From: a virus
Virus record (IMG/VR): IMGVR_UViG_3300037492_000422
Location: 1 to 24,860 of that record
Reading direction: 5' to 3' (one strand)
DNA length: 24,860 bases
Below the pieces are notes generated by a model. That model had not been told where the DNA came from. It worked only from the letters and a program-made list of their open reading frames with translations, and did not search any database. Below, piece by piece: positions 3,375 through 24,677 of the stretch. How positions within the stretch are numbered: position 1 is the stretch's first letter; the number at the start of each line of letters is the position of its first letter. The position numbers and the translations under genes were made by a program.

Positions 3375-4883
3375 ATGTCCCGAACCACCCCGTCTTATTC
3401 TTATAATATCCAAAAAATTAATTGCGTGTATGATCCAACGATATGGAGAGATTTTTTGTGCGAGGATCCTTCTCATTCTATTTTACACAAAAATAGAAGC
3501 GAGTTCGGACTGTCACCTCTTTTTTTGTTTGAAACTGAAAAAGATTTTGTAGCTACTGTTTTTACTTCTTCTGACATCGCAAATAAGATAGATGCATTCT
3601 GTATAGACAAAGAAAGTATTGCTTACGCTGATAAGAAAATGAACTTTCTTGAGTTTGTAGAAACAATTGTTGAGTCGTCTCCTAGAAAGCGCGGCTCTAT
3701 CTGGATTCTTTCTATGGACTGTTTACTATCAGAAGATCTCAAAACCGACGATGAAGTAAATAGGGCTTATAACCTTCTAACGACTTCTCCACCACACAAT
3801 CCAGAAAAAGTTTTAAGTGCTATTGAATTTGCAATACAAAATAGAATTCATTTATTGAATCTTCTTGAAGAATTTGATAGTTCAGTTCTTACTCTTGTAC
3901 ACAAACTGAAAATAATCAGCTGTTTTCTGCATCTAGCTGTAATAAACAGACATTCTCTTCCTATAAGTTATGTCGCTGAATTATACGATGCTTCTGGAAA
4001 AGGATATGCAAGATTTTCTACAGCAAGATTAGCTGAAGTAATGTTGTATCGACACAGTAAGATTGCTTGCTACGATCACGGAAAGCCTACAACTAGTTTA
4101 AGATATCGCTATCATTCTAGAGATGTAGCTACGTATAGATCTTTCATAAAAAAAATAGATAAAACAGGCCCTGGTGCTGCTATCAACTTACAAAATCTAT
4201 CCAACGATTCACCAGAACAAAAAAGAGTGATTAGCTCTGATCCAGATGGTAGCATATTCGAATTTGACTTTGCTACTCAAGAGTTTACAATATTAAAACA
4301 TCTTTGTGGATTAGAAGCTCTATATGATCACGATATTCATCAGAAAGCAGCCGATCTATTAGTAGTAGACAGAGCAATTGCCAAGAAGGCAAATTATGCT
4401 GTCATCTATGGTGCCGGAGATAAAACTGTGCGAGATCTTTTCGTAAAGCATAAAGTTACTCAAGAGAGCAAGAATGCTTATTACGATTACATCTATCCGG
4501 CGCACAAGGCGATTACTGATTATGTAGATAAGACTAAGAAGACGGGCTTTAATGATGCTTATACTTTTAACTCTTACGGTAGAGTAATTGTTTTAGAAAA
4601 AGACGAAAAGAGTAGAGCTAACAGAAACAGAATAATTCAGTCTATTTCTTCTGAGATTCTAGTTGATACTATCATTAGAAATTTAGAATGCTTAAAAAAC
4701 AAAAAGTCTAAGATTTTATTCCACAAGTGGGATTCGTTGTTTATTGACGTTTATAGAGAAGAAGAAACAGAGATAATTTTAGCAATTAGAGATATAATGA
4801 AAAATCAAGCCAACGGAATGATATTTAACATTGATATCAAGCGAGGTAGTTCTTTGGGCTGTTTAAAGCCATATCAGATATGA
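3375..4883 (+). CDS. polA: Family A DNA polymerase, polymerase domain only
   Basis: This 502-residue protein carries the three polymerase motifs of family A (Pol I/T7) enzymes in its C-terminal half. Motif A is at 'FEFDFATQEF' with Asp298 and the +5 Glu303. Motif B (O-helix) is 'DRAIAKKANYAVIYG' with Arg333, Lys337, Tyr341 and Tyr345. Motif C is 'FHKWDSLFIDV' with the second catalytic Asp453. Tyr341 occupies the Taq F667 / T7 Y526 position. The usual 'HDE' of motif C reads Trp-Asp-Ser here, so the Glu after the Asp is lost. A 'NLQN' segment (271-274) precedes motif A, as in the family. The first 230 or so residues show no 3'-5' exonuclease DxE motif. A Shine-Dalgarno sequence (aaagg, ~3361) precedes the ATG. 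A second, unrelated polymerase is encoded at 17919-21761, so this one may serve repair, gap filling or Okazaki processing. Confidence 0.88.
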   Translation: MSRTTPSYSYNIQKINCVYDPTIWRDFLCEDPSHSILHKNRSEFGLSPLFLFETEKDFVATVFTSSDIANKIDAFCIDKESIAYADKKMNFLEFVETIVESSPRKRGSIWILSMDCLLSEDLKTDDEVNRAYNLLTTSPPHNPEKVLSAIEFAIQNRIHLLNLLEEFDSSVLTLVHKLKIISCFLHLAVINRHSLPISYVAELYDASGKGYARFSTARLAEVMLYRHSKIACYDHGKPTTSLRYRYHSRDVATYRSFIKKIDKTGPGAAINLQNLSNDSPEQKRVISSDPDGSIFEFDFATQEFTILKHLCGLEALYDHDIHQKAADLLVVDRAIAKKANYAVIYGAGDKTVRDLFVKHKVTQESKNAYYDYIYPAHKAITDYVDKTKKTGFNDAYTFNSYGRVIVLEKDEKSRANRNRIIQSISSEILVDTIIRNLECLKNKKSKILFHKWDSLFIDVYREEETEIILAIRDIMKNQANGMIFNIDIKRGSSLGCLKPYQI

Positions 4884-6526: not shown

Positions 6527-7681
6527 ATGGCTAAAAATAAAGAAATAGTAGTAGAGCCCACAACAGAAAATAAACAAATAGAGAGAGAGTTCGTTGAAGA
6601 ATTAGCTGGATTTTTTAAGAAAAGCGATTCGCAAGCTACGGCTGGATTTTTATGGGAGAGCTCTTCGGTCGTTTCATCGTGGGTATCAACTGGAAGTCTC
6701 TTATTAGATCTCGCTATTTCTAACGTTAAAGACGGCGGACTGCCAGTAGGGCGCCTTAGCGAATTATCGGGTCTTGAAGGATCAGGAAAAAGTTTACTAG
6801 GTGCATACATTTTAGCTAATACTCAGAAAAAAGGTGGCGTCGGAGTTCTTATCGACACGGAACACGCTACTTCTAAAGAAGTTCTTAAAGCTGTTGGTGT
6901 AGATATGAACAAGTTAGTTTATGTCCAAGCAGGCACTGTAGAAGATGTCTTTCGTGCCATGGACGCAATTACAAATAAAGTAGCTAATGATCCCGAAAAG
7001 GGTAAAAGACTTATCACGATTGTTTGGGATTCGGTCGCTGCAACTTCTACGTATGCTGAAGTAGAAGGAAACTATGGAGATCACACAATAGGTTTAGCCG
7101 CTAGATTAATTGGTCAGGGTTTGCGGAAATTTATTCCTATAGTTTCAACTCACAATATTTGTCTTGTATTTATTAATCAATTAAGAATGAAGATTGGGGG
7201 TATGGGTTACGGGGATCCGTATGATACTCCAGGCGGAAAAGCAATTGGATTCCATTCTTCTGTTAGAGTTAGATTACAGCATTATTCTCAATTAAAAGAA
7301 AAAGACACTAAAGTTCAACTAGGTAGAGTTGTAAAAGCAGAAATAAAAAAGAATAAAGTAGCTCCTCCCATGCGTACTCAGTTTTTTACGATTAAGTGGG
7401 GAACTAAACCCGGAGCTTGGATTGACGAAGCTTCTTCTTTACTAGATGCTTGCGAAGCTTGTAAGATTGTCAAGAAACTTTCTACTATATCGTTCGAATT
7501 AGAAATGCCTAATGCTATTCCAGTGAAGTTCAATAGAAAATCTTGGGAAGACATGATGAATGATCAAAATATCTACGCTTACATAAAAGAGAAGCTTGAA
7601 GATAAATACATTATAACCGAAAAGAACGTAACAGCGGATAATCTTATAGTTTCACCCGCTTCTCCAGATGAAGGAGAGTAG
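6527..7681 (+). CDS. uvsX: RecA/UvsX-like recombinase
   Basis: The 384-residue protein is a RecA-fold strand-exchange ATPase. Walker A is 'GLEGSGKS' (82-89). The following strand is 'GVGVLIDTEHATS' (about 104-116), as in RecA's 'FIDAEHALD'. Walker B is 'LITIVWDSVAA' with Asp168. The segment 'FINQLRMKIG' (215-224) and the Gly-rich stretch after it correspond to the conserved NQ(I/L)R motif and DNA-binding loop L2. 'TPGGKAIGFHSSVRVRL' (234-250) matches the RecA 'GG.AL.F..S.R..' region. The size is near T4 UvsX (about 390). It should promote recombination-dependent replication together with the SSB upstream. The ATG follows a clear AGAGGAG site and lies one base after the preceding stop. Confidence 0.92.
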   Translation: MAKNKEIVVEPTTENKQIEREFVEELAGFFKKSDSQATAGFLWESSSVVSSWVSTGSLLLDLAISNVKDGGLPVGRLSELSGLEGSGKSLLGAYILANTQKKGGVGVLIDTEHATSKEVLKAVGVDMNKLVYVQAGTVEDVFRAMDAITNKVANDPEKGKRLITIVWDSVAATSTYAEVEGNYGDHTIGLAARLIGQGLRKFIPIVSTHNICLVFINQLRMKIGGMGYGDPYDTPGGKAIGFHSSVRVRLQHYSQLKEKDTKVQLGRVVKAEIKKNKVAPPMRTQFFTIKWGTKPGAWIDEASSLLDACEACKIVKKLSTISFELEMPNAIPVKFNRKSWEDMMNDQNIYAYIKEKLEDKYIITEKNVTADNLIVSPASPDEGE

Positions 7682-7683
7682 TT

Positions 7684-7881
7684 GTGGTAACAAAAATAAT
7701 TGATTTCAAACAGTGTTCTAAATGCTTAGAATTTCCAAGTATAAAAGTTGTCAATATTCCCCTTTCTGAATTTACTCGCTATCGTTCAACTTGTTCTTGT
7801 AGAGAAAGTGATTTAAGCAATGTAAATTTTCACTTCTTAGAAGACGCAGCTCTTTTTTGGAATAATGTTTGTAACACGTAA
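7684..7881 (+). CDS. Small Cys-rich protein, possible zinc finger (GTG start)
   Basis: This is a 65-residue protein starting with GTG at 7684, three bases after the recombinase stop and behind GAAGGAG (about 7671). It contains two Cys pairs, 'CSKC' near residues 11-14 and 'CSC' near residues 37-39, with another Cys at the C-terminus. The two pairs could bind one zinc ion. The function is unknown. Spacing and ribosome binding site support a real gene. Confidence 0.5.
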   Translation: MVTKIIDFKQCSKCLEFPSIKVVNIPLSEFTRYRSTCSCRESDLSNVNFHFLEDAALFWNNVCNT

Positions 7882-7895
7882 CAAAAGGTACTGAA

Positions 7896-8120
7896 ATGAA
7901 GCATAATTTTTTAATTACTTTGAAGATGGATGATAATATAATAGCTAGTAGGTCACTTGACATTCCAGAATACAATGAAAATGTTATATATAGTTTAAGA
8001 CTCAATAAACTCACGAAAGATATGGCTACTTTATTAGAAGAAGCATTTAAAGAATCAGATGTAAGTAGAATTTTTTCAGAGATATCTCTTAGGCCCGGTA
8101 AGATGGAAGCGAATAAGTAG
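7896..8120 (+). CDS. Unknown 74-residue protein
   Basis: This small protein starts at an ATG behind an AAAAGG site (7881-7887), 14 bases after the previous gene. A beta-strand-like N-terminus ('NFLITLKMDDNIIASRSL') is followed by a helical, charged second half. No family was recognised. Its TAG stop shares a base with the GTG of the next short ORF, which supports coupled translation of small accessory genes in this stretch. Confidence 0.5.
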   Translation: MKHNFLITLKMDDNIIASRSLDIPEYNENVIYSLRLNKLTKDMATLLEEAFKESDVSRIFSEISLRPGKMEANK

Positions 8121-8269
8121 TGAGTAGCAATATTTTAGTTCTTGTTTTGGGTTTCGTGTGGCTTACAGCAATGCTGTTCTATGAACAGTGGTCTTGGTGG
8201 ATATTCGAACAGTGCAATAAGTTAGTTCAATTTATCTCGAAAAGAGTAAATCGTGATAGAAAGCAATAG
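8120..8269 (+). CDS. 49-residue single-pass membrane protein (GTG start)
   Basis: A GTG at 8120 overlaps the previous stop by one base (taGTG) and opens 49 codons ending TAG at 8267. The product has one hydrophobic segment, residues 4-21 ('NILVLVLGFVWLTAMLFY'). An aromatic belt ('QWSWWIF') and a basic C-terminus ('KRVNRDRKQ') follow, as expected for a bitopic inner-membrane peptide with its positive end in the cytoplasm. The size and form recall phage lysis-related or superinfection-exclusion (Imm-like) peptides, but there is no specific match. A weak ggaag lies about 12 bases upstream. The composition makes a chance ORF less likely. Confidence 0.5.
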   Translation: MSSNILVLVLGFVWLTAMLFYEQWSWWIFEQCNKLVQFISKRVNRDRKQ

Positions 8270-15858: not shown

Positions 15859-16890
15859 ATGCAACAATATTCGAAAAATTTGATTCTTGGTGGCGGAATT
15901 GCTGGACTAGTAGCTGCAGAAGTTCTATCTTGTCACAATTTTCACATAGTTCAAGAAGAGGGTGCTGCTCAAGATAATAGCACTATAAAGACTATCGGGG
16001 GGCAAATGGCTAATGAGTGGCCACTTGGTCCCCGAGTTTTGCATTTCTCTGAGCGAATGGAGGATTTCTTAAAACTGATTGGCTTCAAAGAAGAAGAAAT
16101 CTTCATGAAGATCTTCAAAGTTGGCTATAAAGTAGAAGATGAAGTGCTACCAGTAGCTCCGGAAGGTTTCAGAGAAGCGTATATTAAGAAAACAAGACCG
16201 CACGCAATAGCTGATAGTAAAAGCTACATGTCAGAAGGTTTGAATGAATTTGTAGGATTTGTAGATCCTAATATCCAAGATATAACTAGAAGATTGCACG
16301 AAAGAGCTAGTAATAGAGAAGTATTCATAAGATCTCGAGTGTTCTCAGTTGACCCTATTCAAAAATGGATATCAATAAACAAGTGCTTGATAGAATATCT
16401 CAGATATGAGAAATTGATCTCAACAATTCCGCTAAATAAGCTTCTAGAAATGACAGCTAATTTCCATCTTGGCGATAGCCACAGATTTGCACATTACGAA
16501 GATAAGACAAGAAACTTTGAGATAACTGAGAAAATATTATTATATGCAAGATTCAAGTCTGCTGCTTTAGAATCAATGCGCAGTAAGTGCGATTACTTCT
16601 ATTCAGCTACCGACCCGTATACTAGAGTAACGTTTGATCCGAAATACGGTGAAAACATCATCATAGAAACAGATTATATTAGCTATTTGCCAGACATCAT
16701 GAACGATAAGTTCTTAGGAATAGAGAAGCTTCTAGATCAAAAGCATATTCCAGTTCAGATTCAGAGAAATCTTAGTTTGAAGACGCTGAATGGAATTTGG
16801 TTAGTTGGCAGATTTGCTCAATGGGATCACGATATTCTTACTACTGATGTTCTTGATAGAGCTCTTGAATTAAGGAGAGGCTGGGAATGA
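15859..16890 (+). CDS. FAD-dependent oxidoreductase (amine-oxidase-like fold)
   Basis: The 343-residue product begins with a strand and dinucleotide-binding loop 'LILGGGIAGLVAAEVL' (8-23), the GxGxxG signature of FAD/NAD(P)-binding Rossmann enzymes. The C-terminal segment 'NGIWLVGRFAQWDHDILTTD' resembles the second FAD-contact motif ('G.y.vGd/GR....') of amine-oxidase, protoporphyrinogen-oxidase and UDP-galactopyranose-mutase-like proteins. The middle region, which would set substrate specificity, is not recognised. Its stop overlaps the start of the dUTPase/HAD gene (ATGA), which suggests a role in nucleotide or modified-base metabolism. Some phages with hypermodified thymine are known to use FAD enzymes. 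The substrate remains unknown. GGAG at 15851-15854 supports the chosen ATG. Confidence 0.68.
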   Translation: MQQYSKNLILGGGIAGLVAAEVLSCHNFHIVQEEGAAQDNSTIKTIGGQMANEWPLGPRVLHFSERMEDFLKLIGFKEEEIFMKIFKVGYKVEDEVLPVAPEGFREAYIKKTRPHAIADSKSYMSEGLNEFVGFVDPNIQDITRRLHERASNREVFIRSRVFSVDPIQKWISINKCLIEYLRYEKLISTIPLNKLLEMTANFHLGDSHRFAHYEDKTRNFEITEKILLYARFKSAALESMRSKCDYFYSATDPYTRVTFDPKYGENIIIETDYISYLPDIMNDKFLGIEKLLDQKHIPVQIQRNLSLKTLNGIWLVGRFAQWDHDILTTDVLDRALELRRGWE

Positions 16891-17879
16891 GAGAAATAAT
16901 GAAAGATAGACTTGACATCATTTTTGAAATACAGAGAGAATTCAATAAAGAGTTCTTGGCAAAGATCAAGGGTCAGAATCTTGATGGTTTGACTGTGGAA
17001 CAGACGGAAGATCTGGTTAAAGACTATATTCTCCACTTAATCAAAGAAGCAACAGAGCTACTGGATAACTTTAAGTGGAAGATGCATCATTTTAATGAGA
17101 AGTCTCATTCTCATCTTAATTCTGACAATCAGCTAGAAGAAATAGTTGATATCACAAAGTATCTTGTAGGAATTTGTAATCTGCTAGGATTTGATTCAGA
17201 AGATTTAAGCAATAGATTCGTTAAGAAGTCTATTCTTGTACAGCATAGATTAAAGCAAGACCTATTGATGAAGCAGATAGCCGAACAACCAGATGTCAAG
17301 ATTGCAGCTATTGACATTGATGGAGTGCTTAACAACTATCCTTTTGAGCTGGTAGAGCTTGCAAAGAAAATGTTCAAAAAAGATGTTGATCTTGGGTTCG
17401 AAGTACATCGACCAAATCTATCAGATCTTCTTCCTTTTGAGAAATTGAAGGCTCTTAAGCACGAGTATAGATCTAATGGATCGAAGGCTAATCTTTCAGC
17501 TGCAGAATTCGCAAGTGAATTTTTGAGAAACTTAAAAGAACTAGGCTACACTATAATTCTAGTTTCTTCAAGGCCCGTTAAGAAATATGCCTCCATAGAA
17601 CACGATACTCTCAAGTGGTTGAGAGACCAAGATCTCGCGTACGATCTATTGTTCTGGTCAGATGAAAAAGAAGAGTTCTTACTCAACAGATTCTCAGAAG
17701 ACAAATTAGCACTTTTTATCGACGACGATCCCTTGAATTGCCTCAAAGTAAAAGGTTCTTCAGCTAATACAAAAGTTGTGCACAAGATAAACTCACTAAT
17801 CTGTCATCCAGTTTCTGCTCTAGCATTAACTCGGAGAAATGTAATATCTGTTGATTCTTTAAGCAAAATAGTGATTTAA
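16887..17879 (+). CDS. All-alpha dUTPase (MazG-like) fused to HAD 5'-nucleotidase
   Basis: The 330-residue protein has two domains. The first 130 or so residues are helical and carry the all-alpha NTP-pyrophosphatase metal pattern: 'KEATELLD' (Glu54, Glu57, Asp60) and 'EEIVDITKYLVG' (Glu85, Asp88), as in dimeric dUTPase/MazG proteins. Residues 137-330 form a HAD-type phosphatase with motif I 'AIDIDGVL' (Asp143, Asp145), motif II 'LVSSRP' (Ser227) and motif IV 'LFIDDDP' (Asp279-Asp281), of the kind seen in 5'(3')-deoxyribonucleotidases. Together they could turn dUTP (or another dNTP) into dNMP and then into deoxynucleoside. The ATG overlaps the FAD-gene TGA, with a GGAGAGG ribosome binding site (16874-16880). 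The domain calls are good; the dUTP substrate is inferred from the neighbouring UDG-polymerase and the family. Confidence 0.78.
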   Translation: MREIMKDRLDIIFEIQREFNKEFLAKIKGQNLDGLTVEQTEDLVKDYILHLIKEATELLDNFKWKMHHFNEKSHSHLNSDNQLEEIVDITKYLVGICNLLGFDSEDLSNRFVKKSILVQHRLKQDLLMKQIAEQPDVKIAAIDIDGVLNNYPFELVELAKKMFKKDVDLGFEVHRPNLSDLLPFEKLKALKHEYRSNGSKANLSAAEFASEFLRNLKELGYTIILVSSRPVKKYASIEHDTLKWLRDQDLAYDLLFWSDEKEEFLLNRFSEDKLALFIDDDPLNCLKVKGSSANTKVVHKINSLICHPVSALALTRRNVISVDSLSKIVI

Positions 17880-17918: not shown

Positions 17919-20900
17919 ATGAAAGAACTAAACGAAGCTATTCTTGCGTGCAAAAAGTGTCCCAACGCCGAGTTGGAAATAAATGCGACTAGACTAAAGC
18001 CGCACGGATTTCCCTCTTCTCGTTTTATGTTAGTTGGCCTCAGCCCTTCATATCTTGCTCCTAGTAACAGAGAATGGCATTTCATAGAACCTGACGAGGG
18101 TAGACCTACTGGAACTAAGAACGAAACTCTGATCAAAGCTTTGCTTCTAAGAGCGGGAATTGATTATTGGACTTGCTATAAGACGAATGTTTTGAAATGT
18201 AAAGCTCCCGATAATAACGTCGAAGATGCTCGTCTAAGAGTTTGCGTTGACACTCATTTTGTAAGCGAGCTAAAGTCAGTAAAGCCTGATTTCGTTATTG
18301 TCATGGGAAATCAAACGTGGAAGTCTATAGTTTCGCTGATTGAAAAGTTTCCAAAAATCAAGTTTGTTGGAATCAACCACGTTTCTTATTGCGTAAGAGG
18401 TGGATGCTCAGAAGAAGAGTTCACTAGTCAACTCGACAAGTATAAGGGTGTCATTACTTCTATCAGAAACAAATCATTCGTAAATCTTCATCATCACAAT
18501 GAATTTTCTATTAGAGACGGAATTGGCAATACTGAAGATGTTGCTGACCGTCTTGTTGAGTTGCGCTCTCATGCTTTTTGTCTTACAAATCATGGAAACG
18601 TCAACAGTATCTACCGTCAGTTTAAAGCTTCAACAGAAAGAGGCTTGAAGCCTATTTTTGGTTGTGAGTTCTACTACAATGAACACGCTAGAGCTCTTGT
18701 TGAGCTTGATCAAGAAGTAAAGTTGACGCCTGAACAAAAAGCTCTTAAGAAGGCTCTAGACAAACAGCGTCATCACGTTACTATTATTGCTAAGAATGAC
18801 GCGGGTTATCACAACTTGATGCGATTGAACAATCAGGCGTGGATTGAAAGATTCTATAGATTTCCTCTCATCGATGATATTGCTTTATTTGGTCATGCTG
18901 AAGGATTAGTTGTAGGATCTGGATGCATTGGTGGATTCATTCCATCTCACCTGCTGTCTGGAGATTTTGAGGGTGCCAGAGCTAAAGCTCTAATGTACAA
19001 GGAAGTTTTTGGCTCTGATTTCTACATAGAGCTCATGTCCACTCTTTATGAGCCTCAAAAGAAGGCTAATGATGAACTAGTAAAGCTTGCTAGAGATATT
19101 GGTGTTAAGGTAATTGTTACAAACGATTGCCACTACATCAATAAGGGTGATCACGTTATTCAAAAGACAGCAATGCTTTCAAGAGACAATAAGACTTTTG
19201 AAGATGCTAATGATCCCACGGCTAAGGTCTGGACTTTCGAATCAACTGATCTCTTCATAAAGACACCAGAAGATCTCAAGAGCGACCTGGAAAAGAATTT
19301 GAGAAGTGAAAATTATACTGATGATGTTCTTGAAGAGGCTGTTAGTAATGTTCATGATCTAGTTTCTAGGATAGAACTTCCTAATATCGACAGGAAGATT
19401 AAGCTTCCTAAGATTGCCAAAAATCCAGAACAGAAATTCAAACAACTAGTAAAAGAAGGAATCATTAGAAGAGGCTTAACGCTCGACGAAGTAGCAAAGA
19501 AGCGTTTGAAGCTTGAAGTTCAGACTATCATCAGTCTGGGCTTTGTCGACTACTTTCTTATTCTTGCCGAACTCATTACTTGGACTAAAGAGACTTATGG
19601 AAAATTTTCTACAGGTGTCGGCCGCGGTTCTGCTGCTGGTTCTTACGTAAATTACATATTGGGCATCACTGGAGTTAATCCTCTTGTGGTTGGCGAAGGC
19701 AATCTTATGTTTGAGAGATTTATGTCTCCCGGTAGACGAGATTTACCAGACATCGATACAGATTTTGACTCAAGGATTAAGCGTTCAGTTGTACAACACG
19801 CTATCGAATTATTTGGTAGAGATAATGTTGTTGCTATCGGCAATTACGGAACTAACAAGCTAAAGTCTACGATTCAGGATGTCCTTAGAGTTCATGATGC
19901 TCCATTCGGAGAAGTGACTTCAATTACTAAGAAACTTCATGATGCTCTAGAAGACATGTCCTTGGAAGCTGTACTAGAAAAGACTCCAGCTCTTAAAGAG
20001 TTGCTTGATAAGTATCCCGGTTCAATAAAAGCAGTTACTGCTCTTAGAGGATCAATTAGATCTATTGGTCAGCATGCTGCTGGTATTTGCATTGCAGGTG
20101 TTCCTGTAACAGAAAACTTGCCGCTTATTAAAACATCAACTGGTGAGCTTGTTACAGCTAATACTGAAGGTGGAGACTATCACGAACTCACGGATATGGG
20201 ATTCGTCAAGTACGATATTCTTGGATTGACTTGTATCGATATCATCTCTGATGCTGTTGAACTTGTTATGAAGCATAGAGGCATAGATCTAGATTGGGAT
20301 AAATTCGAAACAACAATCGACACAAATGCTCCTGGTATGTACAACTTGCTCGATACTGGGGATACTTATGGAATCTTCCAGTTTGGATCTAAGCTAGCTA
20401 CCAACTATTGCAAGATGCTAAGTCCTAAGAACTTGGATGACTTAGCCGCCGCATCGGCCTTGCTAAGACCGGGTCCTCTTGACGTATCAGCTCACTTGAG
20501 CTTTGCTAAGAGGAAGCACGGTAAAGAAGAATTTACTGTCCCTGAATGCTTGCAGGACATTCTAGGAAGAACCGCCGGAATTCTTGTTTATCAGGAGCAA
20601 ATTCTTAGGATTTGTCAAGAGCTTGGAGGATTCACTCCAGAGGAAGCTTCCGATTTCAGGAAAGCTCTAGTAAAGTATGAACGCTCTGTCACTCACGAAA
20701 AGAAAAGGAAAGCTAGAGTTAAGACTTATGCTGAAAAGCTTATCAAGGGCTTGAAGAAGCATATGTCGAAAGAAGAAGCAGATCTTTGGTGGAAGAACAT
20801 TGAAGCCTTCGTAAGATATGGATTTTGTGCTGCTCATGCTTATAGCTACGCTATACAATCTCGCAGAGAAATGTATCTCAAGTATTACTATGGTCCAGAG

Positions 20901-21761
20901 TTCTGGACTTCGCTGCTCAATTCTAGCAACAGGGATGAGCTACTAGTCGTCGTAAACAATATGATGAGACATCCAGTTAGAAGGTTTGATAGTGAAGGAA
21001 AAGAGACTGATTATTACCTTAGAATCAGCTTGCCTTCTCTAAAGAAGCGGAACTCAACATTCACTCTTGAGTATGACGATAATAATGAAGCAACTGTTTT
21101 CTACGGGCTTGAGCACATCAAGGGTCTTACAGAAAACTTCTTTAATGCAATAGCAACTCTTACAGCTGAAGTGTTTGACAATGCTGAAAAGCTATTTACT
21201 GCTAAGTTTGAAAATCCAAAGAAGGATGGAAAGCTCAAGTTTGTCATAGACAAAAGATGCGCTCAAGCATTGCTCTATTCTGGAGCTCTTGACTATTTGG
21301 GCGATAGAAGCGAGCTTGTTAAGACTTGGAACGAAGTGAGAAAAGGTTCGCCTATTGGCACTATCAAGAACAAGCGTCACAAAATGAATCTTGAGGAGAC
21401 TTACAATTCTTATAGTCTAGCCAAAATTAGCGCTAATGCTAAGGATAGGAAGATATTACTAGAAGGCTTAGAAGAGACTTTGGGCTCTTCGTTTACAACT
21501 TCACGGTCGTACGATATCTTTAATGATGCTGATACGACATATGCTGTGGACATTGGTACTATTACTAAGATGAAGTCAAAGACGTCTAAGAATGGAAAGC
21601 CCTACAGATTGCTTGAGATCACTTGCGATGGAGAAGCTTTCTATCCACTGATATGCTGGAAGAACGCTGACATGGAATCCGGTGTGAACTATATCTACTT
21701 CATGTCGAAACAGCGAGGAACAACTTTCGTCAACCTCAATAACATAGTACCAATAGAATAG
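17919..21761 (+). CDS. dnaE: Uracil-DNA glycosylase-like domain fused to DNA polymerase III alpha
   Basis: This 1280-residue protein joins two enzymes. Residues 1-185 match family 4-type UDG. Four Cys can bind an Fe-S cluster (Cys11, Cys14, Cys94, Cys109). Further matches are 'LVGLSPSY' (38-45), 'KTNVLKCKAP' (88-97) and 'GINHVSY' with His154 as motif 2. The usual GE.PG motif 1 is altered. A PHP domain follows, with 'LHHHNEFSIRDG' (190-201), 'TNHGN' (223-227; canonical TDHGN), 'FGCEF' (247-251) and 'TNDCHY' (401-406). The family C palm has 'GVGRGSAAGSYVNYILG' (566-582), 'LPDIDTDFD' with Asp611 and Asp613, and Asp766 in 'KYDILGL'. 'FRKALVKYE' and 'YGFCAAHAYSYA' lie in the fingers. An OB-like fold closes the protein. 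It is probably the replicative polymerase. No in-frame start exists upstream of 17919, because TGA is at 17904. Confidence 0.9.
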   Translation: MKELNEAILACKKCPNAELEINATRLKPHGFPSSRFMLVGLSPSYLAPSNREWHFIEPDEGRPTGTKNETLIKALLLRAGIDYWTCYKTNVLKCKAPDNNVEDARLRVCVDTHFVSELKSVKPDFVIVMGNQTWKSIVSLIEKFPKIKFVGINHVSYCVRGGCSEEEFTSQLDKYKGVITSIRNKSFVNLHHHNEFSIRDGIGNTEDVADRLVELRSHAFCLTNHGNVNSIYRQFKASTERGLKPIFGCEFYYNEHARALVELDQEVKLTPEQKALKKALDKQRHHVTIIAKNDAGYHNLMRLNNQAWIERFYRFPLIDDIALFGHAEGLVVGSGCIGGFIPSHLLSGDFEGARAKALMYKEVFGSDFYIELMSTLYEPQKKANDELVKLARDIGVKVIVTNDCHYINKGDHVIQKTAMLSRDNKTFEDANDPTAKVWTFESTDLFIKTPEDLKSDLEKNLRSENYTDDVLEEAVSNVHDLVSRIELPNIDRKIKLPKIAKNPEQKFKQLVKEGIIRRGLTLDEVAKKRLKLEVQTIISLGFVDYFLILAELITWTKETYGKFSTGVGRGSAAGSYVNYILGITGVNPLVVGEGNLMFERFMSPGRRDLPDIDTDFDSRIKRSVVQHAIELFGRDNVVAIGNYGTNKLKSTIQDVLRVHDAPFGEVTSITKKLHDALEDMSLEAVLEKTPALKELLDKYPGSIKAVTALRGSIRSIGQHAAGICIAGVPVTENLPLIKTSTGELVTANTEGGDYHELTDMGFVKYDILGLTCIDIISDAVELVMKHRGIDLDWDKFETTIDTNAPGMYNLLDTGDTYGIFQFGSKLATNYCKMLSPKNLDDLAAASALLRPGPLDVSAHLSFAKRKHGKEEFTVPECLQDILGRTAGILVYQEQILRICQELGGFTPEEASDFRKALVKYERSVTHEKKRKARVKTYAEKLIKGLKKHMSKEEADLWWKNIEAFVRYGFCAAHAYSYAIQSRREMYLKYYYGPEFWTSLLNSSNRDELLVVVNNMMRHPVRRFDSEGKETDYYLRISLPSLKKRNSTFTLEYDDNNEATVFYGLEHIKGLTENFFNAIATLTAEVFDNAEKLFTAKFENPKKDGKLKFVIDKRCAQALLYSGALDYLGDRSELVKTWNEVRKGSPIGTIKNKRHKMNLEETYNSYSLAKISANAKDRKILLEGLEETLGSSFTTSRSYDIFNDADTTYAVDIGTITKMKSKTSKNGKPYRLLEITCDGEAFYPLICWKNADMESGVNYIYFMSKQRGTTFVNLNNIVPIE

Positions 21762-21774
21762 AGGAAGTAAAGTA

Positions 21775-22731
21775 ATGGTAAAAGGTCACAGAATCTACAT
21801 CGAAGGTCCAGATCTAGCAGGCAAGACTACTCTTGCTAGAAATACTTCTTACAAATTTTGTAATGAAGTTCAAGATCGCAGTTTTATTTCGGCTTTTGTC
21901 TACGATCAAGCTCTTAGACGCGGAAAGTTGATCTCAGAAACTGAATTTGAAGATTGGTGTAATAAGTTTCTAAACAATAATGAAACTCATGTCGCTATCC
22001 TAATTCCCGATGAAAAGACTTTAGAAAAGCGTTATAGTGAACGTGGAGATTCTCTTTCATTAGAAGAAATAATGAAAGTTAGAGCTATGTATGTAGCTGT
22101 TTACGAAAAATTTATGAAGGAAAGAGGAAATGTATCCCGCGTGAGTTATGGCGATTACGATTTCAGGGAATATTCTGATTGTGATGAATTAATTGATTGC
22201 TTAGTCGGAACAGAAACATTTTCGTACAAAATAAAAAATGATATAGAAGAATTGAGACTTCTTGTTATAGAAAAGCCAGTTCTAGGCTATGACTTCAGAT
22301 ACAGATTTGAAGACTGTGCTCAATTGGGTGAAGTTGCTAGAAGTTTCTTTAGCGAAAATCGCTCTGATATAGAAATAGATCATAACGACTACTATGCTAT
22401 TCATGGTTTGATTTTAGACAAACTTCATTATTGCAAATCAATTCTTGGAGATAGAAGACTAATAGCCCATACTGATATGTGCATTTCTCTATTTCATTTC
22501 CAGCTTGAAGATAACAAAGTAGTTGTAAATTGGGTCATAAGAAGTTCTGACGTAAAGAACAAGCTAGTTTCTGATATGTGCTATATGCTAGAAGAGACTT
22601 TCTTAGTTTTCGGGAACATCATTGGTAGAATTATAATTGGAGAAGTTCCTTTGGGAGTTGGAAGTTTTCCAATAGAATTCAATGTCAGAATTCTGAACGC
22701 TCATAACGTAGAGGTAAAGAATGCAAAATAA
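21775..22731 (+). CDS. Nucleotide-kinase-like domain fused to thymidylate-synthase-like domain
   Basis: Residues 1-145 form a P-loop kinase like thymidylate kinase: Walker A 'EGPDLAGKTT' (10-19) and a lid-like 'EKRYSERGD' (84-92). Residues 150-318 look like a TS/dCMP-hydroxymethylase core. Cys236 in 'HTDMCISLFHF', Arg256-Ser257-x-Asp259 in 'IRSSDV' and Asp267 have the spacing of E. coli TS Cys146, Arg166 and Asn177 (20 and 31 residues). Asp in place of Asn177 is known from T4 dCMP hydroxymethylase (Cys148/Asp179). The N-terminal TS features (Glu58, Trp80) and the His207/Tyr209 pair are not evident, so the domain is divergent. It may make or phosphorylate a modified dCMP. GAGGAAG precedes the ATG, and the gene overlaps the ThyX-like gene by 11 bases. 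Confidence 0.68.
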   Translation: MVKGHRIYIEGPDLAGKTTLARNTSYKFCNEVQDRSFISAFVYDQALRRGKLISETEFEDWCNKFLNNNETHVAILIPDEKTLEKRYSERGDSLSLEEIMKVRAMYVAVYEKFMKERGNVSRVSYGDYDFREYSDCDELIDCLVGTETFSYKIKNDIEELRLLVIEKPVLGYDFRYRFEDCAQLGEVARSFFSENRSDIEIDHNDYYAIHGLILDKLHYCKSILGDRRLIAHTDMCISLFHFQLEDNKVVVNWVIRSSDVKNKLVSDMCYMLEETFLVFGNIIGRIIIGEVPLGVGSFPIEFNVRILNAHNVEVKNAK

Positions 22732-23722
22732 TGAAATAGAGAATCTTAGGAGCGCAATGGGCACTTTGCCTAACCAAGCTCCAGAAAAAAGCTACGAATA
22801 CAGAAATTGTCTCGATACTATCTATACTAAGATGGTAGAGTGGCCAGATAATCCCTATAGAATGATGGTTCGCATGGCTGCTTCTACTTGGGGTGATGGT
22901 GGAACTGGGCAGGGACATGGTAGTACTCAAAAATGGGAGAAGCTCACACCCGAAAATCGTTTTCGTGTAGCTCTCAGCGTTCTCACAAACAATACACTAC
23001 CTGTCCCTGCTGAGGCTCCTCAGTTCGTCTTTGAATTCAACGGAGTGCCAAGACATACATTTGACCAGTTCGCTAGAATGAGACTTGGCTCTGGTCATGC
23101 TTCAATCGGATGTAGAGACAACAATAAGCTGGATGTCCCATTTGTTCTATATCCAGGGCTTTATGAGATGATTAAGAAATACTCGAATCTAAGACGTCAG
23201 TTTGAAGATTGGATAGTTGATACAAAAGATCTTTACGAAGCAATCTTGAAAGAGGGTAGCGGATCTTGGCAGGAAGCTCGAGCTGTCCTTCCCATGAGCT
23301 ATAGTCATAGTTGGACAAGCTATATCAATTTCTTAGCTTTCAAAGGGCAGTGTGGTAGAAGGTTGATGGCTTGCGAGGAAGCACCTATCGTTCTTTTGTT
23401 CTGGAAGATGAGAGCTGAAATCGAAAACAAGTTCCCTCTTCTTGCCAACTATTGTAGACCAGTTTGTGATAATGCTAGAAAGTGTGTTTATACAGAAGGT
23501 CCAGAGGGCTTGACAAAGCTATTCTCTAATTTGTTCGCAGGTTGCGGTAGATGGCCAGACAGCTCTGGTTATTCCGAGTTCAATAGAAGCTGTACTTCTT
23601 ATGCTGAACTAGAAAAGCATGTTCACATAGTTGGAGCAGAAGAGTGGAAGAAATTTGGTCTAGATGATTTTGAGAAGCTAGACAGAAAAGACAAGGAGTT
23701 GTTTGCCGATGGCTACGTATAG
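22721..23722 (+). CDS. thyX: ThyX-like flavin-dependent thymidylate synthase homologue
   Basis: The 333-residue protein resembles ThyX, which methylates dUMP using FAD and folate. The segment 'PRHTFDQFARMRLGSGHAS' (110-128) aligns with the family's 'R...fQ.vRHR..S.nE.S.RY' signature. 'WQEARAVLPMSYSHSW' (183-198) matches 'E.ARavLP.s..T.w'. 'FKGQCGRRLMACEEAPIVLL' (207-226) and the following 'FWKMRAEI' match the distal helix with the catalytic Arg and 'AQ.EIR'. The RHR signature reads RMR here and the nucleophile-position Ser is shifted, so function may have changed. Length is above the usual 220-250. AGAGG precedes the ATG, which lies within the end of the TS-like gene. Having both a TS-like and a ThyX-like protein in one operon is unusual. 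Confidence 0.7.
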   Translation: MQNNEIENLRSAMGTLPNQAPEKSYEYRNCLDTIYTKMVEWPDNPYRMMVRMAASTWGDGGTGQGHGSTQKWEKLTPENRFRVALSVLTNNTLPVPAEAPQFVFEFNGVPRHTFDQFARMRLGSGHASIGCRDNNKLDVPFVLYPGLYEMIKKYSNLRRQFEDWIVDTKDLYEAILKEGSGSWQEARAVLPMSYSHSWTSYINFLAFKGQCGRRLMACEEAPIVLLFWKMRAEIENKFPLLANYCRPVCDNARKCVYTEGPEGLTKLFSNLFAGCGRWPDSSGYSEFNRSCTSYAELEKHVHIVGAEEWKKFGLDDFEKLDRKDKELFADGYV

Positions 23723-24242: not shown

Positions 24243-24677
24243 ATGGGATTTACAAAACTATCTTGGGATTCTGTCTGGATGCATTTAGCTCTAGATCTAT
24301 CTTCTCGATCCACTTGTTCTCAAATGAACAGACGAGTAGGTTGTGTTATAGTAGATGCTGAAAACAGCTCTGTCCTCTCTCTAGGGTACAACGGCAATGC
24401 TAAAGGTCGAGACAACAATTGCGAGATAGTTGATTCTACTAGAAAAGATACGATAAGCAATTGTACTTGCGTTCACGCTGAAGCTAATGCGCTGATCAAG
24501 TTTAACTATAGCTACCCCTTTCCCGTTGTAATGTATCTTACGCTATCTCCTTGCGAGACGTGTGCTAAGATGATTGTAAATGCAGGTATTTCAAAAGTAA
24601 TTTACCGAGATCTTTATTCTACGGAAGTTCTTAGAATTTTAACAGATGCAGGAATAAAAATTTGTCACTACACTTAA
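24243..24677 (+). CDS. dCMP deaminase
   Basis: The 144-residue protein is a zinc deaminase of the dCMP deaminase type, converting dCMP to dUMP to feed thymidylate synthesis. The catalytic motifs are 'HAEANAL' with His78 and Glu80, and 'PCETC' with Cys104 and Cys107. 'NRRVGCVIVD' (29-38) and 'LGYNGNAKG' (47-55) are the expected substrate-pocket strands. The insertion 'DNNCEI...NCTCVHAE' has extra Cys residues (60, 74, 76) that could hold a second, structural zinc, as in T4 dCMP deaminase. The length is normal for a bacterial or phage enzyme. It lies in an operon with TS-like and ThyX-like genes, a fitting place for a dUMP supplier. The dCMP substrate, rather than a tRNA or free cytidine, is inferred from context and motifs. 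Confidence 0.88.
   Translation: MGFTKLSWDSVWMHLALDLSSRSTCSQMNRRVGCVIVDAENSSVLSLGYNGNAKGRDNNCEIVDSTRKDTISNCTCVHAEANALIKFNYSYPFPVVMYLTLSPCETCAKMIVNAGISKVIYRDLYSTEVLRILTDAGIKICHYT

Follow-up and report, generated by a model that had tools for sequence, protein, structure and literature searches.

A uracil-DNA glycosylase fold at the N-terminus of a viral family C DNA polymerase, encoded within a pyrimidine-nucleotide operon

Background

Polymerases that carry a uracil-DNA glycosylase (UDG) domain are known from family C, where Timinskas et al. (2014) described the DnaEX group, whose UDG domain takes the place of the OB domain and C-terminal domain (CTD) at the C-terminus, and mentioned a homologue in Y. 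pestis (PMC3919608). Here we analyze a gene in which the UDG fold stands at the other end of the protein. It lies in a 24,860-nucleotide stretch (the window; positions 1 to 24,860 of IMG/VR virus record IMGVR_UViG_3300037492_000422), a single metagenomic contig from an uncultured virus known from sequence data alone, and its product, P0001, places the UDG-fold domain in front of the PHP domain of a DnaE-type polymerase. An initial annotation of the window, made from its letters, held that no UDG-family C fusion had been described; the C-terminal UDG of DnaEX makes this claim wrong. The N-terminal arrangement, as far as sequence comparison and the literature reached, appears not to have been described: no account of an N-terminal UDG-DnaE was found in literature whose coverage was incomplete, and the YerA41 polymerase paper does not mention a UDG domain.

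The second group of relatives belongs to polymerase family A. SPO1 is a 5-hydroxymethyluracil (hmU) phage, and hmU phages of this kind encode a deaminase, a hydroxymethylase, a kinase, a dUTPase/dTTPase and a nucleotidase. Its family A polymerase, gp31, has an N-terminal UDG-like domain; that SPO1 joins such a domain to a family A polymerase had been stated in the initial annotation. The SPO1 domain is cysteine-free and reads QENPF in the motif 1 region, and the dUMP hydroxymethylase gp29 is encoded about 2 kb upstream of gp31. Polymerases of the same type, UDG-PolA, occur in the PaBG/Lupandier group (PMC7412058). In PMBT14, the UDG-PolA gene directly follows genes for a kinase, an NTP pyrophosphohydrolase, a thymidylate synthase (TS) and a dCMP deaminase. 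The family A polymerase of phiLo (PDB 9qhs, released 2026; "with modified template" according to the PDB title) also has a UDG-fold N-terminal region, which came up as a fold match to the domain of P0001. P0001 and the SPO1-type enzymes are alike in being phage polymerases with a UDG fold at the N-terminus, and the window shares with SPO1 and PMBT14 the presence of pyrimidine-nucleotide genes near the polymerase. The polymerases of SPO1 type differ from P0001 in belonging to family A and, in SPO1, in lacking the iron-sulfur (Fe-S) cysteines; that of phiLo is likewise of family A and distant in sequence.

Results and discussion

A family-4-like UDG fold in front of a complete DnaE

The fusion gene is a single ATG-started frame of 1280 codons for amino acids, without an internal stop. 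Its parts, with window coordinates, are as follows.

17919..21761, plus strand: UDG-DnaE fusion gene (P0001), one open frame with Pfam and NCBIfam domains
17919..18476, plus strand: UDG-fold domain, residues 1-186 (PDB profile, AlphaFold, Foldseek, alignments)
18036..18050, plus strand: altered UDG motif 1, residues 40-44, GLSPS where GE[AG]PG is canonical (alignments)
18375..18389, plus strand: altered UDG motif 2, residues 153-157, NHVSY where [FY]HP[AS] is canonical (alignments)
18486..19040, plus strand: PHP domain, residues 190-374 (Pfam, E 2e-32)
19434..20225, plus strand: family C palm/thumb, residues 506-769 (Pfam DNA_pol3_alpha, E 8e-59)
20238..20711, plus strand: family C finger domain, residues 774-931 (Pfam, E 6e-39)
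21024..21311, plus strand: helix-hairpin-helix region, residues 1036-1131 (HHH_6, weak, below cut-off, E 0.0024)

The Pfam UDG family PF03167 matches residues 32-144 with an E-value of 5e-5 and 23.8 bits, slightly below the cut-off of 24.3, which is exceeded when the record alone is searched. Compared with PDB sequences, residues 1-188 match the family-4 UDGs of S. tokodaii (4zbx, E 3e-8) and T. thermophilus (1ui0, E 6e-6), and a profile built from eight relatives reaches family-4 entries at E 5e-21. The AlphaFold model of the domain (pLDDT 78, pTM 0.78) has family-4 UDGs as its best Foldseek matches (E 2e-10, TM 0.67-0.69), followed by UdgX and, lower down, by 2d3y, a second Thermus UDG, of family 5. 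By the model and the profiles, residues 1-186 have the α/β fold of the UDG superfamily. P0001 shares with the family-4 enzymes (TthUDGa, 1ui0; TM0511; S. tokodaii, 4zbx) this fold, the four Fe-S cysteines (Cys11, Cys14, Cys94 and Cys109, in the order C-x2-C ... C ... C) and the motif 2 histidine, His154; Asn90 is retained as well. It differs from them in reading GLSPS instead of GE[AG]PG in motif 1 and, in motif 2 (VGINHVSY), NHVSY instead of HP, the histidine being kept and the proline lost. Family-4 models match the domain at E 2e-12 and 6e-10, and the scores fall far under the curated family-4 cut-offs (TIGR00758, 39 bits of the 125.3 needed; NF040953, 46.9 of 250). The label "family 4-type" given by the initial annotation is therefore apt for the nearest family and the cysteines, and does not extend to motifs 1 and 2 or to the curated cut-offs.

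By its PHP domain, Pol3 core and three catalytic aspartates, P0001 is classed as a family C DNA polymerase (DnaE). It scores 591.7 bits against TIGR00594 (cut-off 434.35), and Asp611, Asp613 and Asp766 of the palm/thumb are invariant across the clade described below. The same is true of H191, H193, D200, H225, E250, H286, C336, D403 and H405, presumably the nine metal binders of proofreading PHP domains, the last two of which fall outside the Pfam match to PHP. A Pfam search of P0001 gave no family match for an OB domain up to an E-value of 1, the C-terminus still aligning clade-wide, and no clamp-binding pentapeptide was seen at the expected place. The UDG module ahead of a complete polymerase, the cysteine and aspartate positions, the altered motif 1 and the GINHVSY reading of motif 2, all proposed in the initial annotation, were borne out when checked against the letters, the alignments and the structural matches.

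The N-terminal fusion clade and its graded UDG domains

Scanning viral contigs with P0001 as a single sequence gave no match, and alignment-based scans were needed; with these, N-terminal UDG-DnaE relatives were recovered from IMG/VR in L018/L019, L020, L021, L022, L100, L101 and L102 and in the fragment L111 (L-numbers are labels for comparison loci or contigs; L122 is the genome of L100), while L108 encodes a protein identical to that of L020. The survey suggested by the initial annotation thus found the same architecture in independent contigs, representing at least seven related viruses. A scan of GTDB genomes returned only a polymerase without UDG from a Euryarchaeota metagenome-assembled genome, so that no cellular host was found. 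In the tree of polymerase cores the window groups with L018 and L100 (support 100), and this group is nested in a nine-row clade (support 97) that includes L105/L107, which have one polymerase in common, beginning directly at PHP. The L107 record, searched throughout, gave no UDG, and no hidden UDG remnant was detectable in L028, the sister of the clade.

Within the clade, motif 1 reads GLSPS in the window, GQCPS in L100, GMNPS in L020, L022, L101 and L102, SLNPS in L021 and SEKPL in the corresponding region of L018; the canonical glutamate is absent from every intact member. Motif 2 is HVSY in the window and L100, and HPS in L020-L022, L101 and L102. The four Fe-S cysteines are present in all distinct UDG-bearing members except L018/L019, where all four are gone; the domain of L018/L019 is still recognizable (E 8e-8 with a profile built without it), and its operon is kept despite the cysteine loss. 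In the closest trio, L022, L101 and L102, the UDG domain has a nonsynonymous divergence (dN) of 0.17-0.22 and a synonymous divergence (dS) of at least 1.75 or saturated, which points to constraint; as dS is saturated in most pairs, dN/dS is indicative only.

In L021 (6990-8280) the UDG-DnaE is interrupted after RYGFNK by what resembles an intein that is split by nature, its presumed halves flanking a separate open reading frame (ORF; 7324-8157) that looks like an endonuclease gene. L023 has a separate UDG gene that overlaps the start of the dnaE frame, and two matches from the phage collection, MT836093 and LR756511, were rejected as fusions, being stand-alone UDG genes.

UDG fusions elsewhere among family C polymerases

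Running the UDG profile over all fetched ORFs showed that DnaE ends in a UDG in some 15 viral contigs (L031, L033, L037/L038, L039, L044, L045, L047, L049, L060, L064, L078, L080, L088 and L089). Among the Timinskas-type comparison loci, which are E. coli and Acinetobacter plasmid relatives, the same order is found on a 112-kb E. coli plasmid (L015) and, in pieces, on an Acinetobacter plasmid (L016). DnaEX and P0001 are alike in joining a family C polymerase to a PF03167-type UDG; they differ in its position, C-terminal in place of OB and CTD versus N-terminal before PHP, and they fall into separate clades of the tree. L086 also has a UDG before PHP on DnaE, with canonical family-4 motifs and without ThyX2 (see below); given its distant place in the polymerase tree, it is probably an independent N-terminal fusion. 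C-terminal UDGs are common on the DnaE polymerases of environmental viruses; they and L086 mostly retain GE[AG]PG, the four cysteines and HP. Overall, UDG domains recur independently on viral polymerases, some N-terminal and some C-terminal, among family A and family C enzymes.

Two of these loci are interrupted. The L044 ORF (3923-8554) has, at residues 1054-1435, an intein-like insertion with an endonuclease-like stretch, placed in the C-terminal UDG at the third Fe-S cysteine (NVVK|C). In L016 (3505-7748) the dnaE gene of the Acinetobacter plasmid is split by a NUMOD4 gene, and the downstream piece, helix-hairpin-helix plus UDG, is annotated as a glycosylase.

A pyrimidine-nucleotide operon surrounds the fusion

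The genes around the fusion in the window are the following.

15859..16890, plus strand: FAD/NAD-binding-like protein (weak evidence: GGGIAGL motif, PF13450 at E 0.014 only, synteny)
16887..17879, plus strand: all-α dUTPase/MazG-like domain fused to an NT5C-like deoxynucleotidase (PF08761, E 1.4e-4, slightly below cut-off; PF06941, E 2e-5; synteny)
21775..22731, plus strand: kinase, YorR/thymidylate kinase (TMK)-like, fused to a TS-superfamily domain (profile against PDB; fold)
22721..23722, plus strand: ThyX2, a divergent flavin-dependent thymidylate synthase homologue (PF02511, E 3e-10)
24243..24677, plus strand: dCMP deaminase (PF00383, E 5e-22)

In profile comparisons the kinase half of the kinase-TS protein resembles YorR and thymidylate kinase and the other half T4 dCMP hydroxymethylase (2axp, E 6e-7; 1b49, the T4 enzyme, E 6e-4). 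The TS-superfamily domain conserves a cysteine and RSSD, and a model with a pTM of just 0.54 has fold matches to YorR, a phage dCMP hydroxylase (9iqu) and many TS. In ThyX2 the signature SIGxRDNNKLD replaces the usual ThyX motif; the protein is 55-59% conserved across most of the clade, exceeding the conservation of the polymerase, and has two matches in the phage collection, both distant. The dUTPase family PF00692 was not found in the larger clade records, which may be incomplete. As judged from these domain matches, a gene set that could make a modified pyrimidine nucleotide is present (deaminase, hydroxymethylase/TS-like domain, kinase and dUTPase-like protein), and it resembles the enzyme set of hmU phages of the SPO1 type.

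Most of this set surrounds the UDG-DnaE in L019, L108, L022, L021 and L100 as well, in varying gene order, and in L022, L101 and L102 the two halves of the kinase-TS are encoded by two genes. A nucleotide-sugar epimerase-like gene lies between or beside these two genes in L022 and L101, possibly for the addition of sugar to a modified base. L122 (12176-13725) has two diverged partial ThyX2 ORFs rather than one. At 3375-4883 the window encodes a second polymerase-like protein, of family A and 502 amino acids, with HKWDS, not HDE, in the motif C region; most clade genomes carry polymerases of both families, A and C.

The UDG domain and the operon occur together, in counts taken over records that may be fragments. 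ThyX2 is present in 8/8 UDG-bearing clade records searched, in addition to the window. Among other family C viral records the count is 0/42; L107, the clade member without UDG, and the sister L028 belong to these 42. The kinase-TS was detected in 10/10 clade records with UDG, against 0/28 others with a match of similar strength; three weak matches covered just the TS part, and the sister L028 lacks the kinase-TS as it lacks ThyX2. The 37.9-kb contig of L107 spans the interval from DnaB to RecA; ThyX2, kinase-TS, dUTPase/NT5C and the FAD-like gene are absent from it, whereas dCMP deaminase, ribonucleotide reductase, helicase and recombinase are retained. This joint absence of the UDG domain and the operon genes is the most direct clue to function, although it is a single event and fragments can mislead.

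What the UDG-fold domain may do

The operon, the variation of motifs across the clade and the domain-less member, none of which figured in the initial annotation, bear most on function. Our tentative preference, which we advance as a serious candidate rather than an expectation, is that the UDG fold serves the replicase as a template-base reader or tether in viruses with modified pyrimidines, and the domain is probably not an efficient excision enzyme. P0001 is the family C polymerase of a virus of tailed-phage type, its UDG fold being derived from family 4 and placed ahead of PHP. The deaminase would convert dCMP to dUMP, the TS/hydroxymethylase-like domain, ThyX2 or both would modify the pyrimidine, the fused kinase would phosphorylate the product and the dUTPase-like/nucleotidase fusion would remove competing nucleotides, so that a modified pyrimidine deoxynucleotide would be placed in the virus DNA. 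A template base, whether of uracil type or modified, would be bound in the pocket of the UDG fold and not efficiently removed, so as either to keep the polymerase attached to modified DNA or to inspect bases before they are copied. We propose that the catalytic motif decays and the fold is kept because a virus that excised its own bases would harm itself. This reading draws on the family-4 fold, the motif 1 glutamate missing from the intact members, the cysteine-free domain of L018/L019, the constraint in L022, L101 and L102 and the strict co-occurrence with the operon in the records searched. The hmU-type gene set and the parallels in SPO1, PMBT14 and phiLo lead us to favor a reader or tether over excision and over a base-blind substitute for the clamp. 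A broader version, about which we are more doubtful, is that a non-excising UDG-derived domain of the replicase recognizes a modified pyrimidine that the virus makes and that lies in the template, with modification and replication coupled in one operon, and that comparable links evolved independently with family A polymerases (SPO1, PMBT14, phiLo).

Several points weigh against this proposal. Cys11, Cys14, Cys94, Cys109, Asn90 and His154 are intact in P0001. Motif 1 is of GLAP type in family-5 UDGs that are active enzymes, so that P0001, with its GLSPS, may excise as well. The modified base is itself a prediction from gene content; the substrate of the TS-like domain may be dCMP, or the domain may just produce dTMP. 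The co-occurrence is confined to one clade, its nested UDG-less case is a single event, L105 and L107 having one polymerase in common, and the records may be fragments. Finally, ctfzr933 (L005) has a canonical UDG motif 1 beside pyrimidine-modification genes; with this counterexample, a simple rule that a degenerate UDG means modified DNA was rejected.

The same retained residues would suit a working glycosylase that clears the template of uracil before the polymerase reaches it; the dUTPase-like protein, dCMP deaminase, ThyX and kinase would then serve to limit dUTP. A dUTPase_2-like domain is indeed encoded next door, canonical motifs are largely preserved where other viral DnaEs carry a C-terminal UDG, and the motif 1 asparagine of L020, L022, L101 and L102 (GMNPS) recalls the GxNPG of TDG/SMUG-type enzymes. 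We nevertheless regard active repair in cis as unlikely: P0001 is without the canonical motif 1 glutamate and motif 2 proline, the aromatic PFxG segment is not conserved, L018 lost all its cysteines while keeping the operon, and an abasic site ahead of the fork would be expected to block synthesis. That L018 dispenses with cysteines and motifs would also fit a domain that binds DNA without base specificity in place of a sliding clamp, as vaccinia D4 aids the poxvirus polymerase. Neither a β clamp (PF00712) nor PCNA was found in clade records of 105-163 kb, in keeping with the missing pentapeptide; however, a host clamp could serve, the records may be incomplete, and a search for T4-type clamps recovered no ring in controls, so that absence of a clamp is not demonstrated. 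A generic tether also does not predict joint loss with a nucleotide operon, and L107 manages without the UDG domain; a purely processive role thus seems rather unlikely to us.

The decayed motifs, the cysteine-free version in L018 and the complete absence of the domain in L105/L107 could also mark a passenger, in which the UDG part of an early fusion serves no function and is degenerating. This is improbable in view of the purifying selection in L022, L101 and L102, the Fe-S cysteines, which among the distinct UDG-bearing members are missing from L018/L019 alone, and the repeated, independent arrival of UDG domains on viral polymerases. An assembly chimera or a frameshift joining two genes, which the initial annotation had named as a way in which its reading could fail, along with the lack of a UDG match in residues 1-185, has nothing to recommend it beyond the window being a single metagenomic contig. 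The same fusion, with an open frame and the same neighboring genes, stands in independent contigs and is thus due neither to chance nor to chimerism, leaving this explanation a negligible probability; residues 1-185, for their part, match family-4 UDGs.

Conclusion

One clade thus shows three versions of one polymerase, with a UDG domain that has intact cysteines and altered motifs, with a cysteine-free domain and without the domain, and these graded versions make it testable whether the UDG fold reads modified bases in the template. That the domain tracks a nucleotide-modification operon bears on why phage polymerases have repeatedly acquired UDG domains. If the proposed reading is true, the domain would be a bacterial-virus counterpart to the sensing of template bases by archaeal polymerases, and it may provide a tool for copying modified DNA.

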